Of a DNA stretch of 27,017 nucleotides, positions 431 through 27,017 are shown piece by piece. The notes beneath the pieces were generated by a model, which did no database searches, had not been told where the DNA came from, and saw nothing but the letters and a program-made list of their open reading frames with translations. Numbering within the stretch: the stretch's first letter is position 1; every line of letters begins with the position of its first letter. Position numbers and translations under genes: made by a program. The stretch comes from Spirogloea muscicola (Eukaryota > Streptophyta > Zygnematophyceae > Spirogloeales > Spirogloeaceae): positions 175,748 through 202,764 of the forward strand of contig WELB01000218.1 in assembly GCA_009602725.1 (NCBI GenBank), given 5' to 3'.

Positions 431-590
431 ATTTGTGTGCTTGTTTTGCTCAATGGGCGAGCACTTTCTTCTTCTCTATGGGCGCGCATTTTCCTTCGGA
501 ACGAGCCACTCTTGAAAGAAAGGCGAGAGAAGGCGCGCTTCCAAATCGACAGCAGTGGCTGTGAGAAGCCAGCCCAAAAGAGTGGACAAG

Positions 591-657
591 AAAGTGCTCG
601 CCCATTGAGAATAGGGGCTGGAACAACCAGCCCGAAAAAGAATGAACAGAGTACGAG
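591..657 (+). repeat. Core dispersed repeat, copy 1
   Basis: This is a 67-bp module from GAAAGTGCTCGCCCAT to GAGTACGAG. It is present four times in the window: here, 1102-1168 (inverted), 7392-7458 (inverted) and 16553-16619 (direct), differing at only one or two bases. It contains an internal GGGCTGG/CCAGCCC inverted repeat. This copy extends rightwards to about 712 in common with 7345-7391 (inverted), including an AACAGAAACAAAGCAGC segment. Confidence 0.85.
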
Positions 658-1101
658 AAGGGGGCCAGGGGAAGCTAAGAAACAGAAACAAAGCAGCTAC
701 GAGACACTCAGTAACCCCTGCTAAGCAGCCGCAGATCAGAGATGCTGGGCTCCTGGAAGTGGGTCCCAAGGCCTGACAGGGCCGGAAAGTGCTCACTCCT
801 TCCCCCCCCACTTCCTACTGACTTCCTACTGCTGACACAGGGGTATTGAGGGCGCCCTGTCTGCCTAGCCTTTGGCTCCGTCATGAACACCTGTATGCAT
901 CTGGCTGGCAGTTTACAGCCGATTTTTTAATATCAGCAGCTGCTTGTATATACCCCCAGCTCCGCGCGTTCGTTGAGCCCAGCCCAGTGGGGCAAGCCGC
1001 TCTACCCCGCTCCACTAACCCAAACTCCGGGCCACCCTCCCCCCCCTGTACCCCCCTGCCCCGCCGTGCTCTCGGCGTGCTCCTCTGCGGCTGGCCCCCT
1101 T

Positions 1102-1168: not shown

Positions 1169-1511
1169 CCTCTGCGGCTGGCCTCATCTCGGAGGAGCCT
1201 CTCTCACTGTGAAGCCCGCCACTTGCTGCCGCTGCCGCCTCCAGAGCCGCGGCCTCCTCCACATAGGAGGCGCAGCCGTAAGCCCGCTTTCCTGCGAGGT
1301 GCCTCGCCGGTGCTCCACACTCAGGCCCTCCATCACTCAGGCACGCTCATTTTCTCGTCCACTGCCGCCCTCTGTCCAGCCCGCTGTCCTGAGCCAGTCG
1401 TCCAGCTCGTTGCTGCAGGCAATCTGCCCGTGGCGAGTCTATTTCTGCGCCGGACGACTGCCCGAGGCCGCTTGCTCGAGCAGGCGCCCACAGTCGTGAC
1501 TCTGCGAGCCC

Positions 1512-4500
1512 ATGACCGGCAGCTCCACTCCGTGGAAGCCGCCGCCAGGGCCGCTGGGGGCGCCCCTGCAGCCGTATGACGTCTTCTTGTGCCACCGCGG
1601 GCCGGACACCAAGCGCGACTTCTGCACATTCCTGGCGCGCGAGCTGCGCCGGCAGCACCTGGCCGTCTTCTTCGACCAGCGGTCGCTGCAGCCCGGCAAC
1701 GATGCCCCCGTCGTGATGACCGCAGCCATGAGGACGGCGCGCCTGGGCATCGTCGTGCTGTCGCGCGGCTTCTTTGCGAGCAGCGACTGCATGCGGGAGC
1801 TTGGGGTGTTCCTGGACCGGAGCTGCGTTCTGCCAATCCTTGTGGGTCTTCGAGCAAGCGATGTGGATGGCGAGCGCATCGTAGCACGGCGGGGCGTGTG
1901 GAGCGATCCCTGCTGCGATGGCGGCCCACTGTGGGAGTGCTACGGCGGCGACGAGGCGGCCTGGCGGTGCAACGTCGCAAGGGTGGCTGCAGTCTCGATG
2001 GACAAGCTGAGCGACCATGGAGGCGACTGGGACCTGTGCATTGACGAGGCCGTGCGTTCCGCATGTGAGCGCCTCGGTCGACCACCGCCCACCCCCACCA
2101 CCATCGACACCACGCCCTTCCCACGCAATGTCGAGTTCCTCGGCCGCATGCCGCAGCTGGAGTCGCTGCACGAGCTGCTGGCACGCCATGGCCGCGCGGC
2201 CGTATGCGGCCTCCCCGGCATTGGCAAGACGCAGCTCGCGCTTGAATACGTGCACCAGCACCGCCGCGGCTATTCGCGCATCCTGTGGCTGGACGCTTCT
2301 GGCTCCAGGCTTGCGGCTGCCTTCCTCGGCCTCGCGAAACCTCTAGGCGTCGAGCTGGCGCAAGGAATGGAGGAGGAGGAAGCAGCACATATGGCAGACG
2401 GTGGTTTATGTCTGCAGCCGCCACTGCCAGGCTGTGACACAGAGAGGCGAAATGTGGAAAGTGTACGGCGGGCACTTGAGGCCGATGGTGGGCCCACGCT
2501 GCTGGTCCTGGACAACCTGGAGCGTGACAATGCTGTCATGGCGGAGGTGCTGCCCACTGGCGAAGTGTGCCACATCCTCGTCACGACTCGTCTGAGTGGA
2601 GTCTCCAATTTCGCAGAACTCCCACTCGACATGCTGGCCCACCGCGACGCCATGGCGCTGCTGCTCGGCCACGAGGAGTTGGGCGGTGAGGAGCTGGAGG
2701 CTGCAGAGGACCTAGCTGGCAGGTTGGGCTACCTGACACTCAGCTTGGCATTCTGCCGGCGGCAGCTTGCTCATGGCGCCATGCTGCCCTCGCGCCTCCT
2801 GCAATGCTTGCAAGCTGAAGGCTCGCAAACCTTCTCTGCCGAGCCTGGAGACCCGGTCTTTCGGACGCACCCTGACCTGGTGCGCCTCTTCGATGCGAGC
2901 ATTGAGCTACTGCAGGGCGATGAAAAGTCTGCCCCAGAGCACAGGGAGCTGGCTGTCGACATGGCACATGCTGCAGGCTGGTTTGCTGGTGTGCCCATTC
3001 CAGAACCCCTGTTGGCCCAGGCTGCCACCCTGCTCCCAAGCATCCGGCGGGCTCTGCAGCCCACTACGCCACCAGAGTCGTACAGAGTCCAAGATCGACC
3101 AAGACGACAAGAGGGGGCCATGCAGGGTGAGGCAAGCCGGCAAGGGCCAGGTAGACCCCATGGCCAATTTGAGGCCGCGGTGGACCGGCAGAAGCCAGCT
3201 GCAGTGGACGAGGCTGTGCGGCTGCTTGTGCACTATGGCATGGCGAGGCGCGCCAAGTGCGACAGCTCCCTCATCTTCCACCGCCTTATGCAAGAATACG
3301 GCAAGGCTAAGGGTGGCACTGAGGCCGGCACCACCATGGTGACTAGCCTCTGCACCTCCAGCGCCTGCGTGGACACATACCCTGAGCACTGCCACCATGC
3401 CATTTGTGCTGCTCTGGGCAGCCACTCTCAAGAGCCTGTGCTTGCACTCTGTGAGGACCTGCTGGCACGTTTCGTGGAGGGCCCTGCTTTGCGTCTGGTG
3501 AACAACCTTGGCTTTGTGCTCAGGCGATATTCCGATTCGCTGCATCTGGCCGACCGCCTGGCTTGGACTGCTGAGCACCGCCTGCAAGCCTTTCCAGCCG
3601 CCTGCGCGTCTGTGTGCGACCGGAGATCGTGGGTGTTGGGCGTGCTCGGACGATACACAGAGGCGGAGCAGCTGAGCCGCCGTGCACTGAAGCTGCGGCG
3701 CAAGCTGCAGACTACTGAGAAGTCCACGCAGCTCGTCTGCCAGTCCCTGATGATGCTTGCCAGCCACCTGCGCAGCAATGGCAAGTACGTCGAGGCGGAG
3801 GAAGCATGCCGTGAGGCACTGGGTATCCGCGAGCTCCGCTTTGGCAAGCAGCACAGCCTGGTGGCCACAACGCTCAACCTGCTTGCTGAGCTCTGCCACA
3901 ATCAAGGAAAGCACAGCGAGGCAGAAGACCTGGCCCTGCGGTCGCTCAGTATCCGACAGGCAACGTCGTCAGGATCAAGCCGGTTGTATTGCGCCACACC
4001 GCTGAGTCGCCTGGCGATTGTGCTGGAGACGGTTGGCCGCCATGCGGAGGCGGAGAGGTATGCAAGGGAGAGCCTGGCCATCCGCCAGGAGTTCCTCAAC
4101 CCGCGCCGGCCAGAGATTGCAATCTGCCTCACCACGCTGGCTGCCACTTTAGCATCACAGGGGCGGCTGCTCGAGGCAGAGGCCAGGGCCCGCGAAGCAC
4201 GACACATCTCAGAGGACGCCAATGGTGTTGGCCACCCGGTCACTGCATTTGCGCTTGAGGGCCTTGCCAACGTGCTCAAGCTGCTTGGACAGCCCTGCTT
4301 TGCTGAAGCAGAGGACCTGTTCTGCCAGGTTGTGGACATTCGTCAGGCGAAGCTTGGGGGCGAGCACAGCTTGACGGCAACCGCATACCGCGACTATGCC
4401 GACCTGCTGATACGTGTTGGCGAGCTACGGTGGACCCAGGCAGAGCAGCTACTGAGGTCGGCACTGCGTGTCCAGCGAAGCGCTTCAACCGCTACCTCGC

Positions 4501-4994
4501 CAGGCGACCTCCAGCTGGCTCGCACTGTGGCAAAGCTTGCAGAGCTCTACCTTGAGCAACAGCGCTTTGAGGAGGCAGAGCCGCTGCTGCGAGAGAGCAT
4601 CTCCATAGCAGAGCAGGTCCTAGGCAGCAGGCATGCGGAGGCGCAGCACCTGTATGAGGCTCTGCGCAGGTCGTTGCAGGGTCAGGAAAGCTTTGTGGAA
4701 GAAGAAAGCATCATCCACAGTATTCTGCAGATCCAGGCCGAGGAACGAGGCCACCGAAATGCGTGCTCCGGCCGCCTTTTCGTGCTCCTTGGCTCCTTGA
4801 TGACTGGCGATGGGCGTTTGCGAAAGGCGCTTGAGGAGTTGAGTGTCGTGCTGGAGGCCAAGCGTGCTGGGTTGGGTATACGGCACTCCGATGTCAAGAG
4901 CCTGGCCAGGAAGGTGGGTGCACTATGGCGACGGCAACTGCTCAGTGCTACCTCCATGAGGAAAAGTAAGGACTCTTTGTCTTGCATCTCCTGA
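1512..4994 (+). CDS. TIR / NB-ARC / TPR protein (NLR-like signalling ATPase)
   Basis: A single uninterrupted frame of 1160 codons. Residues ~21-185 form a TIR domain: YDVFLCHRGPDT at 22-33, a BB-loop region at 54-65, and SSDCMREL at 90-97, where E96 sits at the position of the catalytic glutamate of NAD-cleaving TIR domains. An NB-ARC/STAND ATPase follows: P-loop GLPGIGKT at 233-240, Walker B TLLVLDNLE at 329-337, ILVTTR at 355-360, a GLPL-like GYLTLSLA at 406-413, and the FHRLMQEY element at 589-596 typical of NB-ARC-TPR proteins. From ~700 to ~1120 there are about eight or nine TPRs of ~42 residues, kinesin-light-chain-like (for example GKYVEAEEACREALGIRE at 757-774). There are no LRRs, signal peptide or membrane segments. 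The start is the first Met, 20 residues ahead of the TIR fold. By family knowledge TPRs sense a ligand, NB-ARC oligomerises and TIR makes NAD-derived signals. An immune or cell-death role is inference. A linker at ~520-565 looks poorly conserved and could hide an unspliced in-frame intron. Confidence 0.9.
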   Translation: MTGSSTPWKPPPGPLGAPLQPYDVFLCHRGPDTKRDFCTFLARELRRQHLAVFFDQRSLQPGNDAPVVMTAAMRTARLGIVVLSRGFFASSDCMRELGVFLDRSCVLPILVGLRASDVDGERIVARRGVWSDPCCDGGPLWECYGGDEAAWRCNVARVAAVSMDKLSDHGGDWDLCIDEAVRSACERLGRPPPTPTTIDTTPFPRNVEFLGRMPQLESLHELLARHGRAAVCGLPGIGKTQLALEYVHQHRRGYSRILWLDASGSRLAAAFLGLAKPLGVELAQGMEEEEAAHMADGGLCLQPPLPGCDTERRNVESVRRALEADGGPTLLVLDNLERDNAVMAEVLPTGEVCHILVTTRLSGVSNFAELPLDMLAHRDAMALLLGHEELGGEELEAAEDLAGRLGYLTLSLAFCRRQLAHGAMLPSRLLQCLQAEGSQTFSAEPGDPVFRTHPDLVRLFDASIELLQGDEKSAPEHRELAVDMAHAAGWFAGVPIPEPLLAQAATLLPSIRRALQPTTPPESYRVQDRPRRQEGAMQGEASRQGPGRPHGQFEAAVDRQKPAAVDEAVRLLVHYGMARRAKCDSSLIFHRLMQEYGKAKGGTEAGTTMVTSLCTSSACVDTYPEHCHHAICAALGSHSQEPVLALCEDLLARFVEGPALRLVNNLGFVLRRYSDSLHLADRLAWTAEHRLQAFPAACASVCDRRSWVLGVLGRYTEAEQLSRRALKLRRKLQTTEKSTQLVCQSLMMLASHLRSNGKYVEAEEACREALGIRELRFGKQHSLVATTLNLLAELCHNQGKHSEAEDLALRSLSIRQATSSGSSRLYCATPLSRLAIVLETVGRHAEAERYARESLAIRQEFLNPRRPEIAICLTTLAATLASQGRLLEAEARAREARHISEDANGVGHPVTAFALEGLANVLKLLGQPCFAEAEDLFCQVVDIRQAKLGGEHSLTATAYRDYADLLIRVGELRWTQAEQLLRSALRVQRSASTATSPGDLQLARTVAKLAELYLEQQRFEEAEPLLRESISIAEQVLGSRHAEAQHLYEALRRSLQGQESFVEEESIIHSILQIQAEERGHRNACSGRLFVLLGSLMTGDGRLRKALEELSVVLEAKRAGLGIRHSDVKSLARKVGALWRRQLLSATSMRKSKDSLSCIS

Positions 4995-7344: not shown

Positions 7345-7458
7345 TCGTAGCTGCTTTGTTTCTGTTACTTAGCGCTTCCCCTGGCCCCCTTCTCGTACTC
7401 TGCTCATTCTTTTTCGGGCTGGTTGTTCCAGCCCCTATTCTCAATGGGCGAGCACTTT
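7345..7458 (-). repeat. Extended copy of the dispersed repeat, copy 3
   Basis: Bases 7392-7458 are an inverted copy of the 67-bp core at 591-657. Homology continues leftwards to about 7345, matching 657-712 inverted with two small differences, so ~115 bp are shared. A local duplication of the GCTTTGTTTCTGTT segment (7331-7363) lies at its left edge. Confidence 0.8.
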
Positions 7459-7692
7459 CTTTCCACATTTCTTTGGGCTGGCCTGTGAAAACGGCCAGTG
7501 CCTTACATTCTTTCTCTTACATAGGGACAGGAGAAAGAGATTACATCTGTTTTCCTCATGCAGCGACCTCCCTCTCCTTTTTCTTCCCGCGCAGCCGGCG
7601 TGATGGAAGCAGAAGCAGCAGAAGTACTTCGCCACGGGAGCTCTCGAGCTGCGGCTTGCCTGCAGGCCGAGCTCCGTTGTCGCCGTGGGCAG

Positions 7693-7735: not shown

Positions 7736-7974
7736 TGGCGGCCGGCCGTCGCGGCGGCAGCAGGAACGACCTTGGCCGTCGTGGTTGCCACCTTCGGCGC
7801 CCGGAGCTTTGGAGAGGCGGCCCGGCAGCCAAGCTTGCAGCCATGGCGCCTCCAGAGCGCCCGAGCAGCCTCCGCTTAAAACGCGGCCCGCGACTAGCTC
7901 GCTGCAGCTGGCGGACTGTCGCCGCCGGCTAGCGCTGGCGTCTCTCGGAGCTTCAGCCCGCCCGGCAGGCCGCC

Positions 7975-10900
7975 ATGTTCTACTCGCACTTCATCCTCGC
8001 GAAGAAGGGCCCGCTGGCCACGATATGGATCGCCGCGCACCTGGAGCGCAAGCTCCGCAAGGCCCAGGTTTCCGGGACCTCCATCACGGACTCCGTCGGT
8101 GAGCGCTTCCGCCGGCCCTTGCTGTGGGCCACGTTCGCCAGAAGGTGTGAGCTTGCAAAGCCAGAGCGGGCGCGCAGGATGGCTGACGCAGTCGCTGAGG
8201 GCACCTGCGCAGACACCATCATCAAGTCGGAGGTCCCCATTGCGCTGCGCCTGTCGGGCCACCTGCTGCTCGGCGTCGTTCGCATCTACTCCAAGAAGGT
8301 CGCCGTTGTGCTATCGCCACCCTCCTTCGCGGCCTTCTTACAGTCGTGCTTTGGCAAACAGCAGGTCGGTCAGCACTACTTGAGTGTAGTTTTGGGTTGT
8401 TGCATGACTTTGTGCTTCCGTCAGCAGGTGGGCTACCTGTTGCACGACTGCAGCGAGGCGCTGGCAACGGTCAAGGCGGCCTTTGCAGCGGCGCCGGCGG
8501 CAGGCGCGGGGCACGCGGACCTGCCAGGCGGCGGCGCCACCGTGCCTTTCCAGGCCGTCACACTGCCCGAGGCCGACCTCGACTTTGACGACTTCGGCCT
8601 CCTGCCAGCCGCCCCGCCGCCCGCCTTCCTGTGAGTCCTCGAAGGCCTCGCTCGCTGCAGGGCTTGCCCACCTCGACTGTCTGCAGACTCTCCAGTGACA
8701 TCTTTTGATGTTCATGGCTGCAGGAGCGAGAGCTTTGTTGACCCCAATGTCTCGGCGCGCGAGGCTATCACCCTGGAGGAGCGGCCGCTGCCACCGGACA
8801 CGTTCCACGGCCAGTGGGACTCTGATGGTGGCCATCTCTCTCCTACCCTACTTCTTTTCCTCGGCGGAGCCCACCCCCTGGCGCAGCCCGTGTGCTCGCC
8901 AGTGTGCTCGCTTCTTTTGCCTGTGTGCTCGCCTTGTTTGCAAGCTCTGCAAGTGGAAGACTCTGAGCAGGCTGACGGGGAGCTAGTTCCGAGCCTGGTG
9001 GGTGGCACAGAGCGCTTTGGGGCAGCCATGGAGATGCCGCCGCTGGAGCTCGAGGTGGCGAGCGCATCGCAAGAGCTGCAGCGCCAGGCGGGGACTGCCG
9101 ACGAGCCACTGCCGCCGCCTCCATCGCCTCCGCCTATCCCTGAGGAGGGGGTGGATGCTGGCGCCGTGCACGCGGATGTGGCAGCTGGCAGCACGTGAGG
9201 GGCTGCTTGCCTCCGAGGAACTTGATGAGGTTGCTGCAGTACAGCTGAAACAAATTAGTCTGGAATTCAAGCTTGCGCAGAAGTGACAGCATTTCTGGAT
9301 TGCTAGTGATACTGTCCGAAGTCGATGCTTGTAACAGGGAGCTTGAGCCCATGGACATCGACCAGGAGAGAGAGGGCCGGGCGTCAGTGTCGGCGGCAGA
9401 GGAAGTTGCCGCAGCTGCGGGCACGGCGGCGGCGACGAACGGGTCCGACGGTTTGCGCGATGAGGAGGAGTACCCGGAGCCAGAGGTGCTGCGGTCGATG
9501 GCCACGCAGGAGGTGGGGGCCGAGGCCCCGCCGTTCTCTCCGGCGCTGGGCCTCAACTTGGACGAGACGCCCAGCACGCGCGGCAAGCGGACGTCCGGCG
9601 GCTTGGAGGTGGACCCCACTTCTGCAAGGAGCACCAGCGGCATGGCCATGGCTCTGGAGCTGCCCAGCCCTGGGGGCAGCATCGCTGGCGCGAGCGGTGC
9701 AGGCGCTGGTGACATCCTGGCAGGTGCAGTGAGCGCACTGGGCCACAGAGTTGACCACAACTAAACACAGAACCCTGGACCTGCATTGCTAACCCTAAAC
9801 CCTAAAATAGAGCTGTGTCCAAAAGCCAAGCACTCCATGATATCACGGAGTTGAACACACCTGTCCAAGATTGGCAGACTGACAGCTTAACTGTCGCTAT
9901 TGTCAATCAGCCCTTCCAAGCCCGGGTATGGCGGAGCTGTCACCGTCAGCCGCAGCCGCCGGCGAGGCGGCGCAGCGGCGGCGGCGGCCACGGCGGCAGC
10001 ACCTGGTGGTCGACGCCGTGACTTTCCTCTCTAGCGAGTACGAGGCCTATCGTCCGCCTCGTAGGATTGCATGACGTTCTGGATCATAAGAATCTGGGGT
10101 CGGGGCTCTGACCTTATTGTAGATGTTGGCAGCAAGGCCGTGCTCTTCACGGCCCCCCTTACTCGCGTGGGGTTTGCCATAGGGTTATGAAGCGGCAGCT
10201 GGAGGATACTTCCGACATTCGGCGTGTGCGCCGAAGGCCGCCACCGCCGGTCGCGGCCGCTGCTGGGGCCGCTTTTGCGCACGTCTCCCGACTTCAGGGA
10301 AAGGGCCTCACGTTGGACCTCTTCGCAGCGCCGTCGATGCCAGGTCTATTTTTGACCCCTTCTTCATCAAATTCAAGCAACACCAAACAATGACGTGCAC
10401 TCTGATTGAAACGGTACTGTGAAATGTTCATGACATAGATGCAAGTGCTGCTGCGTGATGCCAGGTCTTAATGCAGAGCTCGTCGACTTTTACCAAAGGG
10501 TGGTGGCCATGTCACCAGCAAATGACCTGCCGCTTGAGGCACTGCCTACGCAAGAGACATCTAGGGAGCCTGTGGAGCCAGCGCAGCCGATGGCAGCCGG
10601 CGGAGGTGACACGGAGCCGCTGTCATCGTTTGACGGTGTTCCAGTTGGCAACCAGTCCGTGTCTAAATTTCCACCAATGCGACCACATTCGCAGCCCCCG
10701 CCCTCGGCCGAGATGGCGGCGGGCTCGCCAGCCGGCTTCTATGACGGCGAGCCCGAGACTGTCTTAGAGATTCCTGCCATGGAGCTAGACGCCGCTACTG
10801 AGATGGTCGCCACGCCCGTGGCAGAGCCGCCCGGTAAACCATGGGGTCTATCACCTGGCTGGAATTCTTGACTTAAGAGTCCAGGAGCTGGTGCATGACA

Positions 10901-16440: not shown

Positions 16441-16552
16441 CTTCGCACTCCGGCTCCTTCAGACCTTGTCCATTCCTTTGGGCTGGCCTTTCCCAGCCAC
16501 CAGTCAATCTGGCCGCGCTTTCTTTACTAGAGCGTTAGGCTAGAGTTCTTAG

Positions 16553-16619
16553 AAAGTGCTCGCCCATTGAGAATAGGGGCTGGAACAACCAGCCCGAAAA
16601 AGAATGAACAGAGTACGAG
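16553..16619 (+). repeat. Core dispersed repeat, copy 4
   Basis: Direct copy of 591-657, identical or nearly so over 67 bases. It follows a TTCTTAGAGAAAGTG-like junction similar to that at 205-218. Confidence 0.85.
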
Positions 16620-17728: not shown

Positions 17729-20700
17729 TTATGTAAGTGGGTGATGGAGTGGGTGAGAAGGTGGGGGAGAGGAAGGAGGCAACTCTTCAAAGTCTTCCTT
17801 TGGCTGCACAGACTTGTCTGCCTTGCCATCCGCGTGGAGGTGAGAAGCTGCCGCAGCGGAGGCGTGAGGAGCCGGAAGTGCATATATTGCCGTTGAGGGC
17901 TGTATGCTCTCAATCAGGCCCGCCACGCCTGTGGCGGCCGTTTGGGCGCTGGACGGCAGAAAGAGGTCGTGCCGCTGGTCCTTGTAAGCTCGCCAGATCT
18001 GAAAGCCCAATCAAGACGTGGCTCGCCCACAGCACTTAGCATGCATCTGAGATGTACTACACCATCGCATTCCTGACCCACATTACGAAGCTTACATCCA
18101 AGTCATCCTGTCATGTCTGGGGTTCATAGGCTAAGCTTACATCTGAGGCTGCCAGGATCTCCTGCACGCGTGCTGTGTACACGCCCTCGCCAGCCAGTCC
18201 CCTCAAGACCTGCAGGCCCGGCACCTCAGCATACTTGTTCCTTGCCTTCTATTACCAAACCCTCAAAGTTAAGGAGCAAGTTGAGGAGCAAATTCACAAC
18301 CAATGTAGGAAGGCAATTTGTGTGCCTGACCTCCACGGCAAGCACGCGCCCCACAGATGCCTCAGCTTCGGACCATTTCATCTGAACGGTGAGGCCGTTC
18401 CGGACGCCGGCTCGCCAGTCCAACAAGCCAAGGAGTACAGGGACAAGGCCAACCCTTCATAAAGAAGCACAAACGGGAGACCATGAGCGAGCATCTAGCG
18501 TTTAGGTGTTGGAGTTATGGTACGGTTATAGATGTTTGGTGCTTCAAACTCGTGACACCAGCGCACATGTAAACAAGGCGTTGCCTGATGGAAGGGAAAG
18601 GCACGCTGAAGCCAAAACAGGAAAGCACAGCATAAGCCTTACTTCAAAGCCTGAGCCACAATGGCATCCCGAGCGCGATTGGCCGGGCTCACGCAGCGCT
18701 TGAGCGCTTCTAGCGCCAACACGCTGCCGCCAGGCCAGCCTATGGCCTTCATGAGCAGTGGAACCACCTGAGAAGGGCACATGACACATGAGACGTTGCC
18801 ATCATTGACAGACGCTTCATCAGTAGCACTCATGTCAGTCTTTCAATCGTAGTAGAGGCAGAGTAGTGTAGGAGGTGAAGTGACCTGTGAGGAGCCAAGC
18901 CCAGGCGCAGCCATGGCTTCAACGCATGCCGACATAGATGCAAGTTGGTGCAGCACCCGCAGGCAGCTGAGTCGGACTTTCTCTTGCAGGGACAGCCCTT
19001 GTTCCTCAGATCCTGGCTCAGTGACTCCCTCAATGCTATCCTTCGGGCACGGGGCCGTGTTGGGCGTGTTGGCCATGGCTGTCAGAAACTTTGGAATGTA
19101 CCCAAGCTGAGCAACATGGTCGCCCAGAACGGGCTGCACGCGGAGGAGTGAGACTAGAGCAGCTGAAAGCATCAACGGGACCTCCATGTCGGCCTTGTCG
19201 ACCGGAGATGGTGACGTCGACGACATGACGCTGATGTATTGGTCCAAGAGACCCTCCAGGAAGCGCTTGGGATTCCGCAGGGGGTGCTTGGGGTCCTTCA
19301 GAAAGAGCCGCACGTACACGCCTCCTACTTGGGGCTCAATGCCCGTATGCATGCCATCCTTAATCACAAGACGAACAATTCTCATCACAAGAAAACAATA
19401 TCAGTTTGACCATCAGGGCGTGCCAAGATAAGATGCCTGGAATCCAAAACAAGCAGACATCATCACACGGAACATACTCTGTGGATGGAAGCAAACATCG
19501 ATCCAAGCTCTTGGAAACTCCACTCAGCCTGGGGCGCCTGAGCCTGCCGTTGGTGCAGGTCATTGGCAATGTCTGCAACCTTGTGTGCCAGCTCTTTGGC
19601 CATCTGAGGGGACCACACAAGCTCAGGGGTCTCGCTCGTTTCGGCAAGCGCCGCAATCACAGCCTCCCCAGGTCCGTCTCTCACGACTGAAAGAATGCCG
19701 TCCGGCAAACATTTGGCAAGACCAATGGCAACCCTCGGACCATGCAAGGGCTCGCCCATAAGCTTGCCAAGTAGCGCAGCAGCAAGGACACTTTGCTGCA
19801 GGACAACATCCTCTGAAGACAACAACAAGCAATGCACGAGGGTCAGATACCTGCAGCTCAAAGTGCAGCAGCTGCCTGAGGCTACCATGGTGCTGCGAGC
19901 CTAGTGGAGCTTAGACAGGCAGCCATGTTAGTGTTAATTGTCCAAAGCTGCACAAGGTGGGCAGCATCTTACTCTGCTCTAGAAGAACAAGCTCGAGTAT
20001 GTACAAGAAGCCGCCATGCTTGGCGGCTGACCACGCCAACTCTGGCGTGCAGGCAAGTGCGTACAGGACCCGCAGAGCTCCAAGCCTGATAACAGCAGCA
20101 TGTGTGCTGTCAAAAGCAAAGTGCTCAAAAGGATGAAGCTATGCAACTAAAATCTCATCACTGTCTACGGCAACCCCAAGACAGAAATTTAAGAGTCCTA
20201 GAGAGGTTGCAGGGACAATTTCGTCCCCAGAAAGAAATAGGCACCGATTAAAATTTGTGCGAAAGAAGCACTGAGAACATCTGCATAAGCTCAACTCAAC
20301 ACGGCCAGCGTCCAAAGAGGCTGACAGCCCAAGGACTCAAGTTAGAGAGGCTCGTACCTACAGGAAGGTACCGTATGGATCAAATGTAATAATAGGAGAA
20401 GGTTGTCAACCTTTGTCACTATGGCTGCCACGCAGGCCTGGTGGTTGGTCAACTGAGCCAGGACTGCAAGCGCAAGGACAGGAAGTTCGTCGATGGACAA
20501 GCTGGGGCCTTGTAAGCAGCAGAAGAGAGGTGCCACCATCTCCACGTCCGCAACAGTGGCTGCCAGGCTGGGGTTTGTAGCCAGCAGATTCTGGCACAAG
20601 CAATGATGGATCACCTTTGTGAGCGAGGTTTCTGAGAATAAAAGGTGCTCTCTTCCTGCCCATAGGTCAAAATCTGCAGAGGTGATGCTAGGTACGACCT

Positions 20701-23700
20701 CACCTGCAAATCCCTCAATCTCACCTGCAAAGCCGTCAGAGCCTGCTTAAGCTGGCCTATGCTGACGTCTCTGGTACTTCGACTGGACTTCCTGATCTTC
20801 TCTGACGACTCCTGGCTCTGAGTATTCATGTCTGCCTGCTCGGAGGTGTCACCACCCTCCTGCCTGACCAAAAGCTTCTCTGTAGTGTCCGATGAGCTTA
20901 TCGAAGCTTCCAATGGTCCATCACCAGACTCCTCCAACATGGGCAAATTCTTCAGTGTGCTGCCCAGGAACTCTAGGAGCGCTGAGCAAAACTCCCCTGG
21001 CCTGGAGACCTCGAAGTCGGGCTGCTCATTGTACACTCTTACATATACATGTCCTAAATATAGCTCCTCGTCAAGAACCTTGAACCTGGTGAATGGCGAC
21101 ACAACCAGGTTTTTTCAGACTGACAAATTATCATTGCCAGATCTATACCTGTCCAAGAATTAGCAATCAGTCAAAGCATTGCCCTTTCCTGGACAAAGCT
21201 CCTCACCAGAAAGTGGCGCCCGCCTCCAGGGGGTATGTACCGTCTTGGTCTGGTCTCTCACGTTCCTGCTCTACCATCTTTGCAAGTTCTGCTCGAGTTG
21301 CTGTGTTCCATATTACCTGCAATGAGAAGTGGTCGGACCATGTTGGCAGAGACACTGAAGATGAATGCACATGAAGTACGCAGGTCAGCAGCAAGATGGC
21401 TTCTCACCAGCAAGAAGATGAGCTCACCTCAGGAGTCTCAATGTTCGCCGTGAGCTTCTGGAGAAGCTTCTGAGGCACGGAGGCTGACAGCATATCCGCC
21501 AGCGTAGGGGTGAGCAGAGCTCTCAGCGCGAGCGACAATGTGGGGTGGAAGGTCGACTTGACCGGTCCATGCTCATCCAGCCGGCCACTCAGACGAGCAA
21601 GCGCACAGACTGCGAGCTCAGCGTGGACATTGCGTGCAGCCTGGATGCTGTTGCCAACCAGCCGGGATGCATTTGTATCCTCGCTTTCAAGCAGTGGCGC
21701 TGTGGCCTCAACCGTGCTATCGTACTGCAGCAGCAAGGGTAGCAGGTACCTAAACCACCAAGCAGGGAGCACAGACTTTAACAACATGCAGCTGAGATTG
21801 ACAATCTTTCTACCCAAAGCATGCAGCAACTGCATATTTGTGGCCTTGACTTTATTCAGTGAATATTTTTGACGAAATCTGAAGAGCAGAAGCAGCTTAA
21901 ATGTGAACTTGATAGGAGCTTGCCAGAGGGCTCCAGCCTTCAGGAGCCTGTCTTGCAGCTCAGCGTTGGCCGCCATCTGCGCCATCGAGGTGAGGGCGGC
22001 CTCCACGGCATCGGTGGCCAGCTCGAGCTCCAAGCACTTGACAGTGTCAACAGCGAGGCTGGTGGAACACGCAGCCATCTCATCCCTGGCGCCCTCGAAT
22101 ACGCTCACGCCAGCCATGGTCCTCATGATGTTGGTCACCACCACCATGGCCGGCTCCGAGGGCGCCGTCGAGGGCCGCACTATGCCTAGGCAGCGGGACA
22201 GCAGCGAGGACAGGAGCAGCACGCCACCATCTCGTGCCAGCTCCTCGCCATTGAGCGGCGAAGACACGCACGTCAACCACACGAGCTCCGTAGCAGCCTC
22301 CAGCAGTGGCGCTCGCTCCGCTGACAGAAAGTCGGCGTCCTCTGGGTCCACGCGGACTGCATCTAATAGCATGGGATAGCCTGCGTACTTGTATGGCGCG
22401 AGCACCTCCGAATACCGGCGGAACAGGATGCACTGGCTCTTGAGGAGGAGCTTCAACCTCCACGGCTGTGGCCCTTGCAGGCCTTGCAATGACGACTGCA
22501 CAAAGTACATGCAGAAGGAAGACAAAGTGGAAAGTTAGTGTCAGAATGACAGTTGTTGCCCACTAATCACATGCTTATCTTTGACAGATTAGCCATGAAG
22601 GCGTAATGACTTACCTGTAGTCGCTCGTATGCCTTCTGGACAGCCTCAAACTTGTCGCGGCCCTCTGGGTTCTTATCAGGGTGGTACTTCATAGCTAGCT
22701 TGCGGTATTGGCGCTTTAATATGATATCGTCCACCCCAACAGTACCTGCATGATGTGGACATGAACAACATAAGAGGTGAAAATGCAGCTGCAAATGATG
22801 GAGTTGGATCTGGGTTAACCCCCCACGACACCTTGTCCCAGGAGACACAGTGCGGGTGGAAGTTATGCAACTTCTCAGAATAGGTCCCACAGCAGTGGGA
22901 CCTCTTCTAACCTGGAGATTATATAGCACTGCTTGCCTGGCTCGGCTTGCTCATCTCGGGCAATTTCCAAGATGGAGCAGGCATCTTCTTCAGAGAGGTC
23001 CAACGGACGGCGCGTCAGTTCCTCACGCCACGTGCCGAGCAGCGACTGGAGGAACTCGACGTGCTCCACGATCGGCCAGTCTGGGAAGCGCACTTCGTCG
23101 CACAGGTTGCGGAGGTAATATCGGTGGCACCACAGTTCGTCAGCCAGCTCGGAGTACGTCACCGGAGGCATCGGCGCATACTCATACAGGCAGTGACAGT
23201 GCTGCGGAAGCTTCTGAGGGAAGTCTCCAAGATGCTGGAATATCTGCAAGCAGAATACAGAGGACGCTCTGAAGCTGCTGGCCTTGCTGGTCACAACGAT
23301 TGCATGCAATGACACGACACAAGCGAAGTTAGAGGCAACTATTATTTTCTGAGTGCAGCCTAATGAGGCGGCTGCCTTGGCACCGCAACCAGACCTGGTC
23401 AATGAGACGCCCACCCCTCATTGAGTGAGTCCAGATGAGCTCAGGTGTGTCAGAGTCTGCCACCATTGCTGCGGCGAAAGGGCCGGGCCCCCGCCTGTCT
23501 AGCACATAGAGAAGGCTCTCGGGCAGCAGGCCTCCCAACACACTCTTGCGGGAGAGTGGGAGTGAAGCGGAGGCCGCAGCCTCGGCACCCCCGTGAAAGG
23601 ACTGCTGCAAGTGCGCGCTGCTGAGCAGGAGCGCAGTGGACCTGTGCTCAAAGTGACGAGCATGATAACACAGGGTTCAGGCCTCTTGAACACCCGCCAG

Positions 23701-26694
23701 CTGCTGCGCAGAATTACCATCTCCAGTAGCAGACGTGATTTTGTGCATTGGGTCCCTGATCGAGCACCTGAGGTTGGAGCCCCCATAGGCAAGCAGGAAG
23801 TAGAAAACTCCTGTTGTGTACAGGCGCGCCATGGCCCGTGGGTTGTGCCGCATTGCTGTCTCCAAGAGGGAAGCTGCTCCAGCAACTACTGCAGGTTCAC
23901 CAGTCAAAATGGACTGCAGAAAGATCCAGCAAAGGAGGTGATAAGTGGCCACTAATGATTGCAGGCAAAGAAAAGCGAATGTGATGGTCTTGGGCTGCAG
24001 GAGCAAAGTGAAACCTGTGCCACATGAGGCAGGCAGCGCGGGCTGGAGAGGATGCGCTTCACGATCGGCGTGGGCGTGACAAGCTCGCCGCCCTCGTCGA
24101 GGTCCGTGTGGACCGCCAGCAGCTTATTCAGGATCCCCAGCGCAACTTCTCCCACCTTCATACCCACTTTGGACAATGACAAGTCAGCACCCAATCAAAA
24201 TCACCCTCCCAGCTATGGTCTCACTGCCTTCAGTGCAATTCGTTCTCTGATGCCTTCTTTTATGACTGTATCCAGTTGCTTTGAGGTCAATTGTGAAATA
24301 GAAGGGAGACAGCAGAAAGTGTCAGAGGGTGGGAGACATCAGTCAGCATGCGATATTTGATGAGCACCTGGGCAGGCGTGAGGACTGGCGCTTTACTGGC
24401 GAGCACCCATCGCAGCTCGCGGACGATGTGCAGCGGCTGCCAGCGGGGCATGTCTGCAGCCCAGCATAGATCCGACCAGCCAACCTCGTTCTTGAAGAAG
24501 GCCCGGCGGACGGCATCCTTCTCCACAGGCCCCACCCGGTTGCAGTCTGCCAGCTGGTAACACCACTCCTTGGGCGGCTCCGTGTATGCCTTTGCCGCGA
24601 TCAGATTGGACTGCAAACACATAGCCCGCGTGATATCTTGGCAGGAGATGCGAAGCAAGACAAGTCGCTCCCTATCTGTCACTGAGGAATGTACAGCTCT
24701 AGCTGGAAGAGCCAAACGACCTTGCCAACTTGCCCGAGCGCGTGGAAGGAAGTGAGATACTGAGTGCTTGAGCGCGTGGAAGGAAGTGAGATAACAAGAA
24801 TACTATGAGCAAGCGAGCAAGCAGGCAAGCAAAGGAGAGAGTGCAAGTAAAGGGGGGGTGGGGGAGTGGAAGAGACCTCACCTGAAGAGGCACAGGGGCT
24901 CGCTCTGACGCCTCATGGGCAGTTGTGAGGAGGTCGACACAGAGCTCACAGCCACCCGCCGAAATGCATGCCTCGGCGTTCTCGGGCACCGACACGAGGA
25001 CCTGCCTCACCGAGCAGGTTGTTATGGGAGAAGAACCCCTTTGCAAACATCCATATTGTTCACACTCAATCAAGACCATGCTGTCAACTGTGAGCGAGCC
25101 CATGCTGTATTCAACAAAGGACAGAAGTTTCTGCACTGATTGTACCATAGCTACTAGCATAGCGCTGCAGCTATCCCCTTGCCTTGAGGAGGAGGAGCAG
25201 GCGGTGACGGAGCGCACGGTCATTTGTGCGGTCCAGCAGCACAGTCATGTGGGCAGTGCCATCAAAGGGCCCAATGGCCGGCCAGTGCGCCTCGTAGACA
25301 ATGGCCATGGCTCGCGCACACAACTCCCGGATGCTGGCGCCGCTGCCACAGCCGCCGCCGCCCTTGCTGACAGCGGTGCTGTAGACCTCAAGGCTGCCGG
25401 TAACAGCTCCATTGCTGTCCGCTTGACCGTTGTCTCGGTCGTCCTCGAAGCCCTCCGGCACAAGGCCCGCGTCAGCGTCACACATGAAGCGGTGGTAGAG
25501 CGCGGCAAATAGGCCAATAGCGTCGTGCAGCGGCAGGAGCGCCTCTCCAGATGCAAGTGCACGATCATCGAGCAGAAGGCGCAGGTAGTAGTGCCCGACA
25601 CAAAGCTCGCGGGCGAGGCTTGGGTATGGTACACGAAACTCGGCAAAATTCCAGCTGATGAGCTCACCGCCAGCGCCGCCACTGCCGCAGCTGGTGAACT
25701 CAGCCAACAATCGCTCGCGTTCAATGTTGAGGAGATGCACCTCGCCTGCCAGCGCCTCGCGCAGCTCCTGCCGCGTGCGCTCGTTCCAGATCAACGCCGC
25801 ACGGCTGTGGTCGCGATCGAGCTCCCGCCAAAGCGTGCCCCAGTTGAGCAAGAGGCTCCCAGTGGCCACCGGCGCCGGCGCTGATAGCGGCAGCGGCAGC
25901 ACTGGCGTTGACTCCAGTGCAACAGCCAGCGGAGGAGTATGCCCTGTGGCCCCAGAGTCAGCGTCTTGACGTGGCACCTCCGGAAAGGCGGCGGCAGCTT
26001 CCGCATGAGCAGTCTGGTCGCCGGGCCTCTCTGCAGCGCTTCCAGAGGCTGGCGGCGGCAGCAGTGTGCCATTGGCGGCATGAGGGTGGACGGACAGCGG
26101 GAGCTGAGCGCTGGCAGCGGCTGCAGCTCCAGCGCCAGCGCTAGTGGCAGTGGCGGCTGCCCGAAGGCCGGCTGCGACCACGGGGCCCACCGCCATGCCC
26201 GATGTGGTGATGACACTTGCCAGCTTGCTGCCGCCGGCAGCGGTGGCCCTCGGGCTGGCTGCGTCCATGGCTGCCGTTGACGAAGCCCTCTGGCGGCCCC
26301 GCCGCTGCTGCAAGACGCGCCGCAAGGGCCCCTCGCTCTCGTTCCTGCTGCCACCATCCTCAGCCCCACCGCCCTCGAGCCCCGGGTGCTGGTGGAGGTA
26401 TGCCAGGAGGCCGGGAGGGAAGCAGCGGGACAGCAGCGCCTGCGCCGGCTGATGGCCGTCCGCCCATAGTGCAACAAGCTGCCGGCTGACGTTGCGGCGC
26501 GCGTCTGTCGCTGCAGATACTGCAGCTGCCAAGTGGCGCAGCAGCGCACCATCACGCAGAGCAGCATCGCGCATGGGCTCTGCTGCCGCAGCGTCCTCCT
26601 CGGCGATGACGCGCATGAGGCCTGCCACGCGCTCGCGCACGCCTTCGGCCGGGTGCCCATAGAGCGCAAAGAGCCGCCGCCGCAGGCCCGCAAC
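17729..26694 (-). CDS. GRV2: Endosomal J-domain protein RME-8/GRV2 (DNAJC13), 5' truncated by the window edge
   Basis: RME-8 is a peripheral endosomal co-chaperone that recruits Hsc70 and works with retromer in cargo sorting. Exons in transcription order: 26694-25183, 25001-24882, 24610-24368, 24155-24015, 23913-23768, 23641-23395, 23243-22937, 22745-22615, 22495-21924, 21749-21428, 21316-21207, 21085-20725, 20590-20358, 20085-19973, 19812-19478, 19358-18885, 18767-18643, 18454-18331, 18209-18141, 17998-17729. All phases agree and give 1984 residues to a TAA. Four IWN-type repeats are visible: [12 protein letters not shown] (~301), ELIWTHSM (~785), [11 protein letters not shown] (1248) and [12 protein letters not shown] (~1584). 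There is a GYF_2-like module at ~555-605 and a J domain at ~909-949 with [10 protein letters not shown] (HPD 927-929). The first exon here carries an Ala/Ser/Pro-rich insert not expected in land plants. The N-terminal lipid-binding part (several hundred residues) must lie beyond 27017. Three of its introns have GC donors. Confidence 0.97.
20699..20731 (-). other. Tandem alternative splice donors in RME-8
   Basis: The 12-mer CTCACCTGCAAA occurs twice (20699-20710 and 20720-20731). On the coding strand this places two TTTGCAG|GTGAG donors 21 bases apart. The upstream donor (exon end 20725) matches the conserved TALQ-NLL junction. The downstream one (exon end 20704) would add seven residues, VRLRDLQ, in frame. 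Confidence 0.75.
21750..21923 (-). other. GC-AG intron in RME-8 (LLKAGALW junction)
   Basis: The donor reads CCTCTG|GCAAGC and the acceptor TTTAG|GTACC. Joining TG to G makes the conserved tryptophan codon and yields [19 protein letters not shown], which matches the family exactly in spacing. A GT donor in the right phase is absent. Confidence 0.9.
22746..22936 (-). other. GC-AG intron in RME-8 (just before the J domain)
   Basis: The donor GAGCCAG|GCAAGC and acceptor CATGCAG|GTACTG leave a split glycine codon (G|GT), giving DEQAEPGTVGVDD before the J-domain [10 protein letters not shown]. The linker is poorly conserved, so support rests on phase and donor consensus. The GT sites downstream are in the wrong phase. 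Confidence 0.65.
24736..24793. repeat. Tandem 34-bp duplication in an RME-8 intron
   Basis: A 24-base segment starting GAGCGCGTGGAAGGAAGTG is repeated exactly at 24736-24759 and 24770-24793. It lies in the intron 24881-24611, followed by an AGCAAGC-rich simple stretch. Confidence 0.8.
25002..25182 (-). other. GC-AG intron in RME-8 (LLLLLK junction)
   Basis: The donor CTCAAG|GCAAGG is a perfect AG|GCAAG consensus. The acceptor is GAGGCAG|GTCCTC. The join gives [21 protein letters not shown], with the same residue spacing as land-plant GRV2. Reading through instead meets a stop four codons later, before any GT. Confidence 0.88.
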
Positions 26695-27017
26695 CTGCAC
26701 ACGATATACACATGATGATGGCCAGTCACGGAGGTGCAAAAACCCCATGGAGCAAGGTAACAGAGCTCCACATAAAATGCACTGCCGCTGTTAGGAAGAA
26801 GACCAGGGCCATGCTCAGCCAGACCAGCGAGGCGGTACAAGAGGAGAGGGGAAAGGTATGGGGAGTAATGGTGGGAGGTCGGGGGTTTCTGTTGGGAGTT
26901 TATCTGGGGGGAGCAGGTTAGCCCAAGCAAGGATGGACAAGAGAAGGAGCGGCAGGTGGAGACAGAGAGCAAGAGAGAGGGGGTAGGACAAGGAGGGGCA
27001 GGAAATGGCAATCACAG
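26695..27017 (-). other. Probable RME-8 intron running off the window
   Basis: The acceptor GTGTGCAG lies just before the exon starting at 26694. On the coding strand this stretch is rich in C and T and has no frame resembling the RME-8 N-terminal region, so it is most simply intron sequence whose upstream exon lies outside the window. Confidence 0.6.

Follow-up and report, generated by a model that had tools for sequence, protein, structure and literature searches.

The window, a 27,017-nucleotide stretch of the Spirogloea muscicola genome (assembly GCA_009602725.1, contig WELB01000218.1, forward-strand positions 175,748 to 202,764), carries at 1512-4994 on the plus strand a single intact open reading frame that runs from ATG to TGA, encodes 1160 amino acids and contains no internal stops (Table 1). 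Pfam searches matched a TIR domain (TIR_2, 1.5e-12, residues 24-112; TIR, 1.5e-11, residues 22-98), an ATPase domain (AAA_16, 4e-8, residues 208-341) and a long run of TPRs (TPR_12, 8e-46 in six stretches; TPR_10, 4e-36), bearing out the original prediction, made from the sequence alone, of a TIR domain, an NB-ARC ATPase and kinesin-light-chain-like TPRs in this order. The NB-ARC match, predicted for residues 200-420 and found at 229-370, was marginal (3.5e-5, 23.6 bits against a cut-off of 23.5). In the PDB the repeats matched kinesin light chain KLC1 (5.8e-22), with matches extending to residue 1053. Solely TPR-type repeat families scored in Pfam after the nucleotide-binding (NB) region and no leucine-rich repeats (LRRs) were found there, so that TPRs do stand in place of LRRs, as had been claimed. 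The bacterial NB-ARC and TPR family FxsT (NCBIfam NF040586) matched with an E-value of 3.8e-60, at 204.3 bits under a cut-off of 300 and with its best stretch at residues 204-512, and the NB region (465 amino acids) gave no match in the PDB at E 10. Given these profile matches, STAND/FxsT-like NB-ARC is a better description of the ATPase than typical plant NB-ARC.

The genome (153.1 Mb in 471 contigs; domain counts in it are lower bounds) was searched with the window protein, giving 40 matches on seven contigs, referred to here as C218 (the window contig), C237, C92, C14, C31, C263 and C157. Copies, broken places and clades were grouped from these matches by hand. Five copies are intact: the window gene and those on C237 (92% identity to the window protein), C92:536k (74%), C14 (73%) and C31 (74%). 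Six further places are broken by stops (C218:164-167k, C92:171-175k, C237:144-147k, C237:148-151k, C263 and C157), and there are a few fragments. Clade A holds C218:177k, C237:157k, the broken C92:171k and others; clade B holds C92:536k, C14 and C31; clade C holds C237:148k, C263 and C157, all three broken. The C14 and C31 copies lack the first 20 residues, and runs of N and simple repeats lie directly upstream of them. The TIR coding DNA of these two copies is identical (nonsynonymous and synonymous divergence, dN and dS, both 0 over 492 sites) and their NB regions have a dS of 0.13; the TIR identity may be due either to gene conversion or to assembly collapse.

By the Nei-Gojobori method, dN/dS was 0.15-0.21 in all ten pairs of the five intact copies, and Fisher tests of four close pairs gave p values from 2e-27 (window versus C237) to 4e-37. 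On this evidence the frames are kept open by purifying selection and not by chance. The linker (residues 530-575) had the highest dN of the windows compared in 9/10 pairs and the lowest in window versus C237. The TPR array had the lowest dN/dS among the TIR, NB-ARC, ARC/winged-helix (WHD) and TPR windows in seven of the ten pairs and was tied in one more, which is not the pattern expected of a fast-evolving recognition domain. Since the TIR matches in the genome all fall within this family (8/8 for PF01582 and 8/8 for PF13676, both lower bounds), it constitutes the detectable TIR source of the genome. No NB-ARC match lay outside the family (4/4 within it), a weak negative given that the model missed three intact copies and that RPW8 was not searched; the C237 copy scored 22.8 bits, below the cut-off, and C92:536k gave no NB-ARC match at E 0.001.

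When residues 1-200 were compared with the PDB using phmmer, E96 aligned with the 'C-L-x-E-L' Glu of 3jrn (AT1G72930, 2.7e-12) and L6 (3ozi) and with the corresponding Glu of bacterial 3h16 and of Roq1; the plant TIRs 3jrn and L6 ranked best and 3h16 third. The predicted identity of E96 with the TIR catalytic Glu therefore rests on sequence alignment to solved TIRs rather than on a predicted fold. This Glu is invariant in five of five aligned TIRs (algal, Clostridia, Azospirillum, Skermanella, Prosthecochloris). The other two signatures that had been singled out, K239 and D334, are like E96 identical in all five intact copies, as are the TTR motif (residues 358-360) and H590; R591 is kept in four copies and is L in one. 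The motif set of a STAND/NB-ARC switch (P-loop, Walker B, TTR/Arg, GLPL-like, MHD-equivalent His) thus appears to be present, where LGYLTLSLA and HRL are what we take to be the GLPL-like and MHD-equivalent motifs. Taken together, the domains and their order, the FxsT match and the conserved motifs support the proposed reading of the protein as an intracellular STAND/NLR-like sensor, of the order TIR - STAND/NB-ARC - TPR.

A genome search with EDS1_EP gave two matches over the cut-off (47.3 and 44.2 bits; cut-off 23.1), compared with none over the cut-off in 14 control genomes. They lie in a three-exon gene, here called HB-EP, whose two GT-AG intron sites are identical in both homoeologs (C237 and C92). 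On the exon frames the EP profile (PF18117) scored 49.4 and 45.6 bits against the same cut-off. In the PDB the EP exon matched PAD4 (8zf0_C, 1.2e-9), EDS1 (8zf0_B, 1.3e-8), further EDS1/PAD4 chains and, weakly, SAG101 (0.021), with its signature YRKLVEPIDLANFYR aligned over YRRLVEPLDIANYYR; it had no match in plasmids. 'HB' is a label for the domain that follows the N-terminus MGVCFS and is helical by eye only. This N-terminus presumably fits the N-myristoylation pattern and may be a myristoylation site. No lipase was found in the 495-residue HB-EP model, and C237 and C92 carry none of the genome's 38 Lipase_3 matches. In the EDS1 family the EP domain is joined to a lipase-like domain, whereas the algal EP domain is joined to the unrelated HB; because the N-terminal lipase-like domain is missing, the linked gene encodes an EP-domain protein and not an EDS1-family member. 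Comparison of the homoeologs gave a dN/dS of 0.25 overall, 0.03 for residues 91-229 (HB) and 0.16 for EP residues 341-470 (Fisher p 2e-12, 3e-11 and 9e-6, respectively).

On C237, HB-EP starts at 155,544 on the minus strand and the intact TIR gene 1.8 kb away at 157,340 on the plus strand, so that the two stand head-to-head; a broken clade C TIR copy flanks HB-EP on its other side. The order clade C - EP - clade A is kept on C237 and C92 and is inverted between them. Searched against the genome at E 0.01, the HB-EP protein gave 14 matches, every one on C237, C92, C157, C263 or C218, each of which also has TIR-NB-TPR matches. Windows of +/-10 kb round all family members amount by hand estimate to about 0.2 Mb of 153 Mb, so that one such neighbourhood would arise by chance with a probability of roughly 0.1%, the copies not being independent of each other.

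Around the broken TIR copy on C263 there are two degenerate HB-EP copies and an EP remnant (56.0k, 65.0-66.4k and 72.2-73.6k; 29-52% identity by piece), which looks like an old birth-and-death cluster. C157 also holds an EP remnant, and at C157:297712-301645 an NB-ARC-TPR frame that lacks a TIR is preceded by HB exons leading into it. There, exon 3 reads on in the same frame past HB through '...TTPFPQNVDFLG...' to the P-loop, and HB residues 91-225 have a dN/dS of 0.27 relative to C237. We rejected this copy as a working gene, as exon 2 is out of frame and the NB/TPR part contains stops; it may be the relic of a real HB-NB-TPR protein, or a rearrangement accident.

Table 1. Features of the window, the linked HB-EP genes and the neighbouring genes; positions without a contig name are window positions, and copy counts refer to the five intact copies.
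Feature	Position	Strand	Basis
Intronless TIR - STAND/NB-ARC - TPR gene	1512..4994	+	ORF and Pfam; open in 5 copies, dN/dS 0.15-0.21
In-frame TGA just 5' of ATG, bounds 5' end of reading frame	1497..1499	+	Read from sequence
TIR domain, residues 22-185	1575..2066	+	Pfam TIR/TIR_2 22-112; phmmer to Roq1 21-183
E96, candidate TIR catalytic Glu (SRGFFASSDCMREL)	1797..1799	+	Alignment to solved TIRs; same in 5/5 copies
M163 at 'SG' glycine place of plant TNL TIRs	1998..2000	+	Aligned to Roq1 'NISGHD'; Met in 5/5 copies
Nucleotide-binding domain, residues 204-390, ends set by hand	2121..2681	+	AAA_16 4e-8, NB-ARC 3.5e-5, FxsT from residue 204
P-loop GLPGIGKT (K239)	2208..2231	+	Read from translation; GKT same in 5/5 copies
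Walker B TLLVLDNLE (D334)	2496..2522	+	Read from translation; D334 same in 5/5 copies
RNBS-B-like TTR motif, residues 358-360	2583..2591	+	Same in 5/5 copies
ARC/winged-helix region, ends set by hand	2682..3311	+	Motifs from translation; FxsT stretch 204-512
GLPL-like LGYLTLSLA (presumed name), within ARC/winged-helix region	2724-2750	+	Read from translation
HRL in MHD place (presumed), within ARC/winged-helix region	3279-3287	+	H590 same in 5/5 copies, R591 in 4/5
Variable linker, residues 516-562	3057..3197	+	34-residue insertion in three 73-74% copies (alignment)
Kinesin-light-chain-like TPR array, residues 711-1053, union of matches	3642..4670	+	TPR_12, KLC1 and other PDB matches
EDS1_EP matches	C237:153680-153964; C92:181055-181273	-; +	Both adjoin TIR-NB-TPR copies
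HB-EP gene, three exons, 495 / 493 aa, outside the window	C237:153548-155544; C92:179485-181465	-; +	
Neighbour: open frame with RAD21/REC8-type cohesin subunit N-terminus	7933..8634	+	PF04825 1.2e-31
Neighbour: RME-8/GRV2-type DnaJ protein, several exons	18843..26790	-	RME-8_N 8.7e-46, GYF_2 8.6e-9, DnaJ 7e-12

Building on the observed domains, motifs, constraint, copy history, EP homology and genomic linkage, the best explanation, to which we give a probability of about 0.5, is a STAND/NLR-like TIR sensor whose product would be read by the linked HB-EP protein, constituting an early or parallel TIR-EDS1 pathway. The TPR array would keep the protein closed and sense a ligand or a host change; nucleotide exchange in the NB-ARC/WHD module would lead to oligomerization; and the assembled TIR domains would cleave NAD+ via E96 and release nucleotide signals. 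The likeliest reader of these signals in the genome would be the HB-EP protein encoded beside other family copies, the EP domain of which is a homologue of the one that TIR products bind in EDS1-PAD4/SAG101, and the N-terminal HB domain, possibly membrane-anchored, would act as executor. Oligomerization, NADase activity, product binding and membrane execution are carried over here from the named families. TNL TIRs turn NADase on oligomerization, and their products bind the EP pocket of EDS1 heterodimers, upon which helper NLRs are recruited (PMC12856790).

The sensor-enzyme part of this mechanism seems probable, while the chances that the TIR product is coupled to HB-EP appear evenly balanced. 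E96 makes the originally proposed role in producing NAD-derived signals plausible, and the linkage of an EP-domain gene to other copies strengthens the case for it; an immune function of the window protein is something we infer. As in the seed-plant TNL - EDS1/PAD4/SAG101 - RNL system, a candidate TIR enzyme-sensor and an EP protein occur in one genome, in the alga even linked. Tentatively, TIR-to-EP signalling may predate seed plants, with TIR-NB-TPR and a one-piece HB-EP receptor-executor forming a linked module. In such a module, HB-EP and the sensor would do the work that seed plants split among a TIR receptor, an EDS1 heterodimer and a helper NLR, and the HB in front of the broken C157 NB-ARC-TPR would look as if the executor had once stood on both the EP receptor and an NLR-like protein.

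Several observations weigh against an HB-EP reader. Three of the five intact TIR copies (clade B: C14, C31 and C92:536k) have no EP match nearby, and no EP gene was seen near the window gene on C218, where 7361 of the 9501 bases of C218:168000-177500 are N; an HB exon lies at 152.6 kb of this contig. On C92, the intact EP gene adjoins a broken TIR copy (clade A). Under half of the EP profile is matched (positions 31-91 and 31-108 on the exons; 32-112 of 211 in the joined model), the C-terminal half of the domain appearing short or diverged, and where EDS1 carries basic residues directly behind 'YYR' the algal EP shows C and L; PAD4, too, is without the basic residues at these positions. Residues 1-90 of HB-EP are near neutral (dN/dS 0.92). 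HB gave no convincing Pfam or PDB relative when searched as a single sequence, as exon frames or as a five-sequence profile: the exon frames had Pfam matches under the cut-offs (N1221-like, E 0.0077-0.013; DUF7648, E 0.0074), the profile had 3p8l as its best PDB match (E 0.33), and one of the five members matched SpoIIGA in Pfam (E 0.0045). To call HB a HeLo/MLKL/RPW8-like helical bundle is a guess by eye, for which the sequence searches gave nothing convincing. Single-sequence AlphaFold2 modelling of the TIR yielded a mean pLDDT of 41 and no usable fold. Lastly, maize TNP-IIa kills cells without EDS1 (PMC9806590).

Land-plant TNP/XTNX proteins (Arabidopsis TN17/TN21, ZmTNP-IIa, MpTNP-III) have the same TIR - NB - TPR order as the algal protein, together with the catalytic-motif Glu, the P-loop and the TTR motif, and their NB is often annotated as AAA, as in the alga. 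Their genes are mostly intronless (23 of 143 have annotated introns; PMC5662649), and the algal gene is a single frame in five copies. The shared plant TIR groups conserve a self-association glycine, with TNPs as the exception (PMC9806590). In 5/5 copies of the algal protein, M163 occupies the place of the Roq1 SG glycine, presumably the one meant. ZmTNP-IIa has an adjacent double Glu, E130/E131 (PMC9806590), that the algal protein lacks, and the algal family, unlike TNPs, is multi-copy and partly clustered with EP genes; the comparison here is one of layout and features. By analogy, the algal protein may work like a TNP or a TIR-STAND-TPR protein, the TNP likeness being in layout and lack of introns, and possibly in the glycine place. 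It would then be possible that it acts as maize TNP-IIa does, without an EP reader, its TIR depleting NAD+ or signalling elsewhere and the EP linkage reflecting chance or shared cluster dynamics. We consider this unlikely, though the most serious of the alternatives. Beyond the shared layout, intronless gene, mainly AAA annotation of the NB and, presumably, missing SG glycine, it is consistent with the requirement of ZmTNP-IIa-induced death for the TIR Glu and the P-loop and not for EDS1 (PMC9806590), and with the clade B copies that have no EP neighbour. Against it stand the confinement of 14/14 HB-EP matches to TIR-bearing contigs, with family windows at about 0.2 of 153 Mb, and the constraint on the EP and HB parts themselves.

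The original prediction had likened TPR-ended TIR proteins to bacterial and fungal STAND proteins. This holds in that bacterial TIR-NB-TPR proteins exist, but the land-plant TNP/XTNX proteins share the layout too. TNLs end in LRRs where the algal protein has TPRs, and it is therefore not a TNL; nor is it an FxsT, as it scores below the cut-off (204 of 300 bits) despite the common NB-ARC to TPR backbone. The three-domain order recurs in bacterial plasmid TIR-NB-ARC-TPR genes, and TIR-NB-TPR proteins were found at three bacterial loci (L014, L015 and L016; the NB-ARC of L015 just under the cut-off), for which BLASTP identity was about 26-31% in the (TIR-)NB stretches and 27-44% in the main TPR ones. 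Fungal HET-NB-TPR proteins, likened here by description, share the NB-ARC to TPR backbone and carry HET at the N-terminus instead of TIR; the NB of TNPs is similar to ascomycete and actinobacterial proteins (PMC9806590). Searches with the whole protein gave one weak TIR-only match from 61 candidate stretches in a genome-contig collection, none among 35 candidates in viral contigs, none in phages, none in the genome behind locus L010, and matches in 41 of 72,556 plasmid records, none covering 80% of the query; a search of viral contigs with one bacterial TIR gave 0 of 5 candidates.

A bacterial TIR-STAND-TPR gene gained horizontally and spread by duplication would give a self-contained abortive or NAD-depleting sensor. 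The intronless gene, the 204-bit match of the NB-TPR part to bacterial FxsT and the plasmid genes of Azospirillum, Skermanella and Prosthecochloris speak for such an origin, which nevertheless seems doubtful, and a little more so than a TNP-like protein: identity to the bacterial relatives is low, no plasmid place covers 80% of the query and phages gave 0 matches, the gene is old enough for homoeologous blocks beside RAD21, and the TIR is closest in the PDB to plant TIRs (3jrn, L6), although bacterial 3h16 comes third.

It is improbable that the protein has a regulatory STAND role in which the TIR serves as a scaffold for protein-protein contacts, in the manner of a MyD88-type adaptor, and not as an enzyme. 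In favour of this reading, the Trp of the plant 'W-C-L-x-E-L' motif (3jrn, L6, Roq1) is replaced by D or Y in the algal copies; against it, all five copies retain E96 along with much of the surrounding sequence. Least probable is a decaying family without present function, with intact copies as survivors heading for loss, since the six places with stops (by hand grouping), among them all three clade C copies, are set against five intact frames with dN/dS of 0.15-0.21 and Fisher p of 2e-27 to 4e-37 in four close pairs.

According to published work, the EP proteins EDS1, PAD4 and SAG101 occur solely in seed plants (PMC10834447), the EDS1 family is defined uniquely by its EP domain (PMC9806590), and TNPs originated in land plants (PMC12856790) and are reportedly missing from seven chlorophytes as well as from K. 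nitens and C. braunii (PMC9806590, PMC5662649). The screen of PMC10834447 used a lipase domain besides EP and clustering to known members, so that a lipase-free EP protein would probably have escaped it. Among algae, Klebsormidium has been described as having NB-TPR genes (PMC7145615) and Ulva as having an NB-ARC-TPR protein (PMC8891106), and TIR-only proteins are mentioned for green algae (PMC5662649). NB-ARC is listed as absent from three unicellular Zygnematophyceae including Spirogloea (PMC11096116); with NB-ARC scores of 23.6 and 22.8 bits the algal family lies right at the Pfam threshold and can be missed by a screen that applies it, and for Spirogloea this statement needs qualifying. 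No report of EP outside seed plants or of an algal TNP was found in the accessible parts of thirteen papers (PMC9806590, PMC5662649, PMC7145615, PMC8891106, PMC9153377, PMC12856790, PMC10834447, PMC11218826, PMC11096116, PMC9915684, PMC7994812, PMC7075850, PMC10561179), a set outside which preprints and most subscription journals fall, so that a prior report is possible. An EP domain carried by a protein without a lipase and linked to TIR-NB-TPR genes in a streptophyte alga would mean that the building blocks of TIR-EDS1 signalling predate land plants, and would provide a simple system for testing how TIR products were first read.

The RAD21/REC8-type and RME-8/GRV2-type genes adjoining the window gene place it in a eukaryotic nuclear genome. 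Pfam matches in the latter lie between 22567 and 26790, and three further frames without matches were assigned to it by position. An RbcS exon scored 120.6 bits against 9n37 ('small subunit 1A'), which we take to be from Arabidopsis, and 87.6 bits against 1gk8, presumably from Chlamydomonas. The host thus looks like a streptophyte and not a chlorophyte, and the original label 'green-algal' holds in the wide sense, though on RbcS it should read streptophyte-type green lineage. Nearly all telomere-like repeats among the places listed are TTTAGGG. Four RbcS places, three RAD21 places (C218, C237 and C92, with a short fourth on contig C76) and triplets in clades A and B suggest a genome triplication, and one is known in Spirogloea muscicola (PMC7994812). 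Contamination was rejected, as RAD21 or GRV2 matches share contigs C218, C237 and C92 with the family; so was the possibility that C237 is a mere allele of C218, given a dS of 0.17 and the third set on C92.

The RAD21-type N-terminal frame is open on C218 (window 7933-8634), and several pieces at C237:163729-164414 and C92:64743-65435 carry stops, perhaps through gene loss after triplication. Window positions 17942-19056 (1115 bp) are 100% identical to C159:166499-167613, as against 88-91% to the C92 homoeolog, which may reflect either a recent copy or an assembly artefact. A short repeat of the GGGCGAGCACTTTC type occurs at window 588-763, 1091-1173, 7345-7461 and 16551-16619 and also near some other family copies; this GGGCGAGCACTTTC-type repeat is perhaps a small mobile element.

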